Shown here one piece after another: positions 19,716-26,830 of a stretch of DNA of 64,000 nucleotides. The notes below the pieces were generated by a model that was not told where the DNA came from, searched no databases, and saw nothing but the letters and a program-made list of their open reading frames with translations. The translations under genes were made by a program, and so were the position numbers. Position 1 is the stretch's first letter. Every line of letters begins with the position of its first letter. The stretch is taken from assembly GCF_008795985.1 (NCBI RefSeq), contig NZ_VMHP01000003.1, positions 1 to 64,000 on the forward strand, given 5' to 3'. Source of the stretch: Marinobacter halotolerans (GTDB taxonomy: Bacteria > Pseudomonadota > Gammaproteobacteria > Pseudomonadales > Oleiphilaceae).

Positions 19716-20912
<1,197 letters not shown>

Positions 20913-20929
20913 CTCTCGTTCGATCTTGG

Positions 20930-20958
20930 AAAAAGGGGCTGCAACTCAGCCCCTTTTT
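20930..20958 (+). terminator. Terminator of the str operon
   Basis: GGGGCTG (20935-20941) pairs with CAGCCCC (20947-20953), flanked by A5 and T5, 18 bases after tufA. Confidence 0.93.
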
Positions 20959-21006
20959 CTGTTTCTGTCGCAGAATCTGACCCAGTGGAGTCGCTGCTGA
21001 TCGCAG

Positions 21007-21035
21007 TTGACACTGCTGGGTATTATGCATACAAT
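21007..21035 (+). promoter_or_regulatory. Promoter of the S10 operon
   Basis: TTGACA (21007-21012) and TACAAT (21030-21035) are 17 bases apart: consensus -35 and one mismatch in the -10. This is the strongest sigma-70 promoter seen in the window. The predicted start near 21042 leaves a leader of only about 60 bases before rpsJ. Confidence 0.88.
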
Positions 21036-21101
21036 GCGGCTCCTTTTTTTGAAGGTCGGCTAGCGAGCTAGCTGCTACGTACGAGTGGAGTTTGGTGCAT
21101 C

Positions 21102-21413
21102 ATGCAAAGCCAAAAAATTCGAATTCGGTTGAAGGCGTTTGATTACCGCCTGATCGACCAGTCAACGCAGGAGATCGTCGATACCGCCAAGCGGACCGGC
21201 GCCCAAGTGCGTGGACCAATCCCTCTGCCGACGCGGAAGGAAAAGTACACCATCCTGATCTCCCCGCACGTCAACAAGGACGCGCGTGATCAGTATGAAA
21301 TTCGTACTCACAAGCGTTTGCTCGACATTGTTGAGCCGACGGAAAAGACAGTAGATGCTTTGATGAAGCTGGATCTGGCAGCGGGTGTAGACGTTCAGAT
21401 CAGCCTCGGCTAA
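21102..21413 (+). CDS. rpsJ: 30S ribosomal protein S10 / NusE
   Basis: S10 is a 30S head protein and also partners NusB and NusG in antitermination. The 103-residue product begins [19 protein letters not shown] and contains [13 protein letters not shown]. It is the first gene of the S10 operon. The 74-base spacer after it carries an unusual rRNA-like sequence described separately. Confidence 0.98.
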
Positions 21414-21423
21414 CGCGAAGCGT

Positions 21424-21476
21424 TAGTCTGTGTAACTGTCATAAGGCCATAGAGGGTGAGAGCCCCGTACACACTA
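21424..21476 (+). promoter_or_regulatory. 23S-rRNA-like structured element before rplC (candidate L4 site)
   Basis: Bases 21445-21473 read GGCCATAGAGGGTGAGAGCC then CCGTACACA. From memory, E. coli 23S domain I (helix 19-20, about nucleotides 310-340) has ATACAGGGTGACAGCCCCGT then ACACA, so the two differ at few positions. Upstream TAGT-c-TGTGTA (21424-21434) can pair with TACACA-CTA (21468-21476) to close the element. L4 binds this part of 23S and represses the S10 operon in E. coli by mimicry. Its presence here, after rpsJ, is my inference and not a known annotation. Confidence 0.5.
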
Positions 21477-21487
21477 AGAGGTGAAAC

Positions 21488-22126
21488 ATGGCAATTGGTA
21501 TTGTCGGTCGCAAGGCCGGTATGACCCGTATTTTTACGGAAGATGGGCAAGCAGTGCCTGTCACGGTAGTTGAGGTTGAACCCAACCGAATTACCCAGCT
21601 GAAAACTCTCGAAAGCGATGGCTATCGTGCGGTTCAGGTAACCGTTGGTAAGCGTCGTTCCTCTCGTGTGACCAAAAGCGAAGCGGGCCACTATGCGAAA
21701 GCCGGTGTTGAGGCTGGTCGCGGTTTGTGGGAATTCCGGCTCGCTGACGGCGAAGGCGACGAACTGACTGCAGGCGGCGAAATTACAGCCTCCATCTTTG
21801 CAGACGGTCAGGTTGTTGATGCTACTGGTCAGTCCAAGGGTAAAGGTTTCCAGGGCGGCGTTAAGCGCTGGAACTTCTCCATGCAGGACGCCACACACGG
21901 CAACTCCCTTTCTCATCGTGCTCCGGGTTCCATCGGTCAGAACCAGACTCCGGGTAAGGTATTCAAGGGCAAGAAAATGGCGGGCCAGATGGGCAATGCG
22001 CAGGTAACTGTGCAAAACCTTGAGGTTGTCCGCGTAGACGCCGAACGCAACCTTCTGCTGATTCGTGGCGCTGTTCCCGGTGCAACCGGCGGGAACGTTG
22101 TCATCAAGCCTGCAGTTAAAGCCTGA
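21488..22126 (+). CDS. rplC: 50S ribosomal protein L3
   Basis: L3 is an early assembly protein reaching toward the peptidyl-transferase centre. The 212-residue product has [13 protein letters not shown] and a long basic loop ending [16 protein letters not shown] 21488 follows an AGAGGTG site 11 bases after the rRNA-like element, which could therefore control its translation. Confidence 0.98.
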
Positions 22127-22137
22127 GGAGCGGTGCG

Positions 22138-22743
22138 ATGGAATTAACTATTACAGGTAGCGGCAAGGGGATTTCTGTTTCCGACGCTGCATTTGCCAAA
22201 GATTTTAACGAGTCGCTGGTTCACCAGGTGGTCACTGCTTATATGGCAGGCGGTCGTCAGGGTACCAAGGCTCAGAAAACGCGCTCTGAAGTGTCCGGCG
22301 GTGGTAAGAAGCCGTGGCGTCAGAAAGGCACAGGCCGTGCCCGTGCCGGTACCATCCGCAGCCCGATCTGGCGTGCCGGCGGTGTAACCTTTGCAGCAAA
22401 GCCACGCAGCTTTGAGCAGAAGGTTAACCGTAAGATGTACCGCGCCGCGATGCAGTCCATTTTCTCCGAGCTGGTTCGTCAGGAGCGTTTGGTTGTGGTT
22501 GACGACATGACTGTCGATACGCCCAAAACCAAGGCCTTCACTGCCAAGCTGAAAGATCTCGGTGTCAGCAATGCGCTGATTCTGTCCGACAGCGTTGAGC
22601 AGAACCTGCATCTGGCGTCCCGCAACATTCCTCACGTAGACGTGCGCGATGTTGCCGGCCTGGATCCGGTCAGCCTGGTCGCCTTCGAGAGTGTTGTGGT
22701 GACTGTTCCCGCTCTGAAGAAGATTGAGGAGATGCTGGGATGA
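22138..22743 (+). CDS. rplD: 50S ribosomal protein L4
   Basis: L4 lines the exit tunnel and, in E. coli, represses transcription and translation of its own operon. The 201-residue product has the tunnel loop with [18 protein letters not shown]. It overlaps rplW by four bases (ATGA). Confidence 0.98.
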
Positions 22744-26509: not shown

Positions 26510-26830
26510 ATGAAAAAGATCAAACGAGATGACGAAGTCATCGTCACAACGGGTAAAGACCAAGGCAAACGTGGTAAAGTCCTGAAAGTTCAGGACGATG
26601 GTCGAGTGCTTGTTTCAGGGATCAATATGATCAAGAAGCACACGAAACCAAACCCGATGCTTGGCACCCAGGGTGGCATCGTCGAGAAAGAAGCACCTAT
26701 CCAGGCTTCCAACGTGGCTATTTTTAATCCGCAGACCGGCAAAGCCGATCGCGTAGGCTTCCAGATCAAGGAAGACGGCGCCAAGGTGCGGATTTTCAAG
26801 TCCACGAAAGAAGTCGTCGATAACCAGTAA
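26510..26830 (+). CDS. rplX: 50S ribosomal protein L24
   Basis: L24 starts 50S assembly. The 106-residue product has a KOW motif ([20 protein letters not shown]) and [15 protein letters not shown]. Confidence 0.98.

Follow-up and report, generated by a model that had tools for sequence, protein, structure and literature searches.

Feedback by L4 on the S10 operon is a textbook regulatory loop. In the parts of the literature covered here, E. coli L4 represses its own operon (PMC10931766, section 3.3) and binds both its own leader and domain I of 23S rRNA, each of which competes with another L4 target (PMC7186457); the domain I RNA is a known target that competes for the protein (PMC7186457; PMC10931766, section 3.3). 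The mRNA site is considered to resemble the 23S site in structure (PMC10931766, section 3.3; PMC7186457), lies 5′ of rpsJ and acts both on transcription, through NusA and termination at a leader site, and on translation (PMC10931766). Stem D of this leader is required for L4-mediated regulation, stem E is the attenuator, and the control reaches rpsJ too, as set out in the relevant parts of PMC10578931. The 2024 review states in its section 3.3 that the L4 site has proved conserved in enterobacteria, Haemophilus and Vibrio, and that its conservation was not demonstrated for Pseudomonas (PMC10931766).

Other described RNAs come near in single respects. An L4 r-leader candidate from Archaeoglobi (Eckert and Weinberg 2020, PMC7247131) is a structured RNA 5′ of rplC-rplD-rplW-rplB with L4 as its suggested ligand; it is archaeal, borderline according to its authors and, in Table 1 of that survey, without a mark of rRNA similarity. 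The r-leaders that imitate rRNA (L20, eL15 and S15) copy particular regions or one junction, as described in section 9 of the same survey. Binding of L4 in the E. coli tnaC-tnaA spacer is intercistronic and reduces translation of the gene that follows but not of the gene before it; this is no ribosomal-protein operon, and the parts of PMC7186457 covered liken the site to the S10 leader and describe no copy of a 23S unit.

We analysed a window of 64,000 nt from Marinobacter halotolerans (contig NZ_VMHP01000003.1, positions 1 to 64,000), in which the spacer between rpsJ and rplC holds an RNA element built like a unit of 23S domain I. It shares its operon and its proposed regulator, L4, with the E. 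coli S10 leader, but lies between rpsJ and rplC instead of 5′ of rpsJ and, unlike that leader, copies rRNA in both sequence and secondary structure. The copy takes in the whole unit, junctions and a long-range pair included, in contrast to the partial copies of the L20, eL15 and S15 r-leaders. We read the element as a putative autogenous L4 operator in the mRNA, a near-complete domain I mimic that would repress rplC and the genes after it with rpsJ left outside; judging from sequence, we put the probability at roughly 0.8. No Rfam family covers the element, the parts of the r-leader survey covered hold the archaeal L4 candidate and no such gammaproteobacterial element (PMC7247131), and our literature searches found no report of it; an earlier mention is possible. 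The features of the locus are listed below; R1 is a covariance model of 71 positions made from 67 rpsJ–rplC spacers, the Marinobacter window among them.

19716–20912: tuf, the gene 5′ of the rpsJ region
20927–20961: terminator-like hairpin 3′ of tuf, from a scan of the window
21007–21035 (+): sigma-70-like rpsJ promoter, TTGACA-17 nt-TACAAT, 11 of 12 consensus matches
21102–21413 (+): rpsJ (S10), 5′ of the element and hence outside it
21414–21487: rpsJ–rplC spacer, 74 nt
21422–21487 (+): whole element, as matched by R1 (62.4 bits)
21430–21432 (+): 5′ strand of the closing helix P1, GUG
21433–21435 (+): junction UAA (mostly NAA in relatives; 23S consensus gAA)
21436–21445 (+): P2 hairpin, short and weak in Marinobacter
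21446–21452 (+): core GCCAUAG, whose first G (21446) forms a long-range pair with C21463
21454–21466 (+): P3 hairpin, GGG-UGAGAGC-CCC
21467–21469 (+): junction GUA
21470–21472 (+): 3′ strand of P1, CAC
21478–21481 (+): rplC Shine-Dalgarno sequence GAGG, 5 nt past P1
21488–22126 (+): rplC (L3), the nearest gene 3′ of the element
22138–22743 (+): rplD (L4, the proposed ligand), second gene 3′ of the element
26510–26830: rplX (L24), well 3′ of the element

A single A separates the core from the GGG of P3 when the spacer is read in this way, and rplW follows rplD. Given the promoter-like site at 21007–21035, the 5′ UTR of rpsJ would be only about 60 nt long, with the start site placed by inference. 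The hairpin at 20927–20961, being terminator-like, would set the str genes apart from rpsJ.

Sequence and structure of the 23S rRNA copy

The initial annotation had singled out a 23S rRNA-like stretch just 5′ of rplC-rplD, and comparison with the native rRNA confirms it at that place: GGCCATAGAGGGTGAGAGCCCCGTA shares 23 of 25 residues with the 23S of this genome (locus L001) in an ungapped alignment. This match scores 40, against a maximum of 32 over 500 dinucleotide shuffles of the spacer, none of which scores as high. R1 aligns to the window along its entire length of 71 positions (62.4 bits, E 4.9e-15) and, although made from mRNA copies, also finds the genome's own 23S over the same full model length (47.9 bits, E 6.1e-11), which makes the match to the native gene significant on both counts. 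Rfam behaves differently at the same locus: over 20900–21700 at E up to 10, the LSU family (RF02541) gives no match and the whole database gives eight weak, unrelated ones, none within the spacer; in 16 related loci, four of them element-bearing, no family reaches its gathering score.

The likeness extends to the layout. For the same stretch of 23S, which we take to be helices 19–20 of domain I, the Rfam LSU alignment begins with a closing helix of three pairs and continues through gAA, a hairpin, aC, a C-G pair enclosing AUA, GGG, a 7-nt loop, CCC and GUA to the closing strand. The element repeats this order with closing helix, NAA, a variable hairpin, GCCAUAG, a GGG/CCC hairpin and GUA; helix order, junction residues and junction lengths all agree, and the form of 23S that it resembles is the one with GCCAUAG. 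Residues conserved across the mRNA copies are largely the junction residues of 23S, with both length and sequence of P2 free. Sixteen 23S loci were examined, of which 12 fit our parser; the other four comprise one with a GCC/AGC form and three with a GAUAC- or GAAAC-type core. Those three (L385, L388 and L393, from the same class) carry the E. coli-like core in place of GCCAUAG.

Relatives uphold both the core and the stem pairs, with compensatory changes. Pair counts rest on 88 distinct sequences. P1 is paired at its three positions in 83, 87 and 88 of the 88 copies, values equalled by 1, 4 and 0 of 2,000 shuffles, and the first five pairs of P2 form in 88/88, 82/88, 71/87, 65/69 and 62/67, above the best of 2,000 shuffles at every position (84, 71, 64, 59 and 60); both sets are corrected for two misparsed copies (L119 and L331). 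Because the parser demanded the letters CC-AG-GGG and AG-CCC, the invariance of these is by construction; a list of 5′ strands served to place P1. The closing pairing first proposed for the element, TAGT-TGTGTA with TACACA-CTA, stands in its inner part, GUG(UA)/(UA)CAC, which is conserved, and falls in its outer TAGT/CTA part: the first outer pair is present in 30 of the 88 distinct copies (the two misparsed included), below the shuffled mean of 41.6.

In alignment A3 of the 88 copies, 95.8% of cells pair, a figure that is favoured by the fitting of A3 to a model of the same structure. Changes on both sides of a pair occur in 60 cells, against 12.4 in shuffles and 2–23 in slid versions, and affect 8 of the 12 pairs, which 1 of 500 shuffles equals; P3 and the C-G pair never vary and are uninformative either way. 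A scan of mutual information adds one non-nested pair, between columns 101 and 150 (21446 and 21463 in the window). This pair is G-C in 84 and A-U in four of the 88 copies with zero mismatches, each A-U copy belongs to a different coded family, and the counterpart in 12 parsed 23S units is G-C in nine and A-U in three. A long-range pair that switches in step in both the mRNA copy and 23S is the sharpest sign of true structural mimicry. The element has in this respect the covariation-backed secondary structure by which r-leaders are recognized.

Hairpin sizes vary widely. P2 spans 7 to 56 nt in parsed relatives, and in L315, L320, L326 and L355 it is extended to 40–56 nt but retains its basal helix, a sign that the tip may make no contacts. 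Between its GGG and CCC strands, P3 holds 39 nt in L128 and 35 nt in L117, with the flanking core intact. In the Pseudomonas copies, GCUCUGAAA might be read as boxA-like; this was rejected, since its letters vary while the hairpin pairs stay.

Thermodynamic stability was also considered as evidence and set aside, being unsupportive for the window and mixed for the family. The window RNA alone has a z-score of +1.13, with 169 of 200 shuffles folding at least as well. Across the 88 copies (the two misparsed included), P1 is complete in 47 minimum-energy folds, and just one copy has the exact rRNA-like fold within 2 kcal/mol of its minimum. With such poor intrinsic folding, the fold would need a protein to hold its junction.

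Distribution among genomes

All 33 same-genus relatives with an rplC match (36 searched) carry the element, in addition to the window itself. At the level of the order, where 145 genomes were searched and 139 have rplC, it lies directly 5′ of rplC in 114 of the 139, a number composed of 92 genomes with an R1 match among the matches listed and 22 of the remaining 47 by individual reading. Duplicate rows from multi-copy genomes, at sites distant from rplC, were excluded from that listing. Carriers are found in 48 of 80 named loci and include Pseudomonas, Oceanospirillum, Chromohalobacter and Microbulbifer; for Pseudomonas, where conservation of the E. coli site was not demonstrated, the element is a concrete candidate for such L4 control. 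The other 25 of the 139 genomes, from nine coded families (f175, f188, f23, f184, f173, f179, f19, f21 and f17), lack it, so that it is dispensable in some families. Element-less spacers of f188 (L312, L314, L322, L327 and L329) and of f175 (L328, L330, L332 and L336) are alike within each family and, by eye, might fold into short hairpins unlike either L4 motif.

The class sample took 150 of 169 rplC-bearing genomes, our own included; of these, 146 lie outside the order and have a readable rpsJ, and the element is found in none of the 146. The phylum sample gives R1 matches in 27 genomes outside the order; one locus from each of 15 of these overlaps 23S rRNA in 15 of 15 cases, without rpsJ. 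Altogether, 369 loci (L002–L370, repeat genomes included) divide into 164 element-bearing, 203 negative and two without a readable rpsJ, and R1 at E up to 1 finds no match in the latter 205.

Proposed ligand and mode of control

From the end of P1 to the called rplC start there are 12–20 nt in 78 of the 85 distinct copies with a called start, and 0–4 nt to a Shine-Dalgarno-like tetramer in 77 of the 85 (counts from the parsing that misread two of the 88 copies). Akin to r-leaders in the broad sense, the element is a structured RNA consistently 5′ of ribosomal-protein genes whose likely ligand is encoded in the operon that it would control, rplD being the second gene 3′; it lies between cistrons rather than at the transcript's 5′ terminus. 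A scan of the window finds no terminator-like site in the rpsJ–rplC spacer, where the E. coli leader has termination at a leader site, which points to translation rather than attenuation. With its end abutting the rplC Shine-Dalgarno sequence, translation initiation at rplC is the natural target.

A mechanism can be proposed on this basis. The domain I unit copied in the element is the one that L4 binds during ribosome assembly, and L4 in excess of free 23S rRNA would bind the copy in the mRNA. Bound L4 would then hold the P1/P2/P3 junction closed beside the rplC Shine-Dalgarno sequence, blocking translation of rplC and, by coupling, of rplD and later genes. Synthesis of S10 would escape this control because the element is 3′ of rpsJ.

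Hairpin E of the E. coli leader is tied to L4 control. Aligning 26 upstream regions from Enterobacterales and neighbours, we see in 13 a hairpin that carries the loop UCAAUCGWAA and precedes a U-rich stretch; its position leads us to take it for attenuator hairpin E. The loop pattern leaves 13 of these 26 leaders of other groups unrecognized and so is no test for every S10 leader. Such a loop on a stem occurs 5′ of rpsJ in 14 loci, all Enterobacterales. It (or a close variant) also occurs on a stem within the rpsJ–rplC spacer in 20 of the 146 class genomes outside the order (L138, L140, L146, L155, L164, L165, L170, L174, L180, L183, L188, L189, L197, L198, L208, L217, L220, L222, L231 and L233). 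Eighteen distinct spacer hairpins, collected with no filter on the stem, all form their first four pairs, with pairs two to four exceeding the best of 1,000 shuffles; the stem of the spacer hairpin co-varies across the 20 class genomes.

Element-bearing loci differ from the E. coli type in this respect: none of the 164 has an attenuator-type loop on a stem, 5′ of rpsJ or in the spacer, in a search that reached at least 100 nt upstream of rpsJ in 164 of 164 loci and at least 250 nt in 149. Two of the 164 carry the loop letters upstream, without a stem. The E. coli-like L4 hairpin and the rRNA mimic therefore appear to be two alternatives for a single control position. That an E. coli-type loop hairpin shares the rpsJ–rplC spacer in 20 of 146 class genomes, and is found in none of the 164 element-bearing loci, strengthens the reading of the element as an L4 operator.

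Because L24 too binds the minimal domain I site of L4, the ligand cannot be named from mimicry alone. The element could accordingly be read by L24, or jointly by L4 and L24, instead of by L4 alone, and the spread of conserved residues over the whole unit fits such sharing of the minimal fragment; we consider this unlikely, given that rplX lies well downstream whereas rplD is the second gene after the element, and that the E. coli-type attenuator loop occupies the same spacer in 20 other genomes of the class. Intercistronic cleavage often gives the flanking cistrons different mRNA half-lives, and the place of the element between two cistrons would suit a structural operon RNA with another role, such as processing or stability at rpsJ–rplC, that merely resembles rRNA. 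Residues of the 23S unit are kept, down to the co-varying long-range pair, which processing would not need, and this makes such a role distinctly improbable. A functionless relic of a 23S fragment inserted near rplC would explain the high similarity across the whole unit, but it would have decayed, whereas the element persists across many of the order's families, keeps a narrow distance to the Shine-Dalgarno sequence and shows compensatory changes that contradict the idea, to which we give very little weight. That a short GC-rich stretch matches 23S by chance is hardly credible, for the close match in the window is only 25 nt long but is equalled by 0 of 500 shuffles and conserved across the order.

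Repression by L4 is the reading to which we return. The possible L4 control site of the initial annotation finds support from the sequence and gains from its place 5′ of the rplC Shine-Dalgarno sequence, from rplD as the next gene but one and from the short leader of rpsJ; the word "relocated" fits the site relative to E. coli, with no direction of movement implied. As a putative operator that leaves rpsJ outside, the element makes the exemption of S10 from L4 control open to testing. It is also a very complete natural mRNA copy of an rRNA site, and its natural variation accordingly hints at the rRNA residues that the ligand requires, those of the junctions, and at those it might do without, in the P2 loop.

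A wider picture is tentative, and we would place the odds somewhat against it. Gammaproteobacteria may have arrived at two unrelated RNA solutions for the same operon and protein at the same spot: some orders would have an E. coli-like hairpin, and this order a whole rRNA unit, possibly derived from a fragment of 23S that was copied. Both would lie 3′ of rpsJ and thereby exempt S10, a protein with a further role in transcription antitermination, from L4; the enterobacterial site 5′ of rpsJ would be derived, and the rRNA-like version could sense L4 and L24 together. Separately, five loci (L155, L162, L204, L233 and L236) have long rpsJ–rplC spacers in which promoter-like and terminator-like stretches are seen by eye, as if rplC opened a transcription unit of its own.
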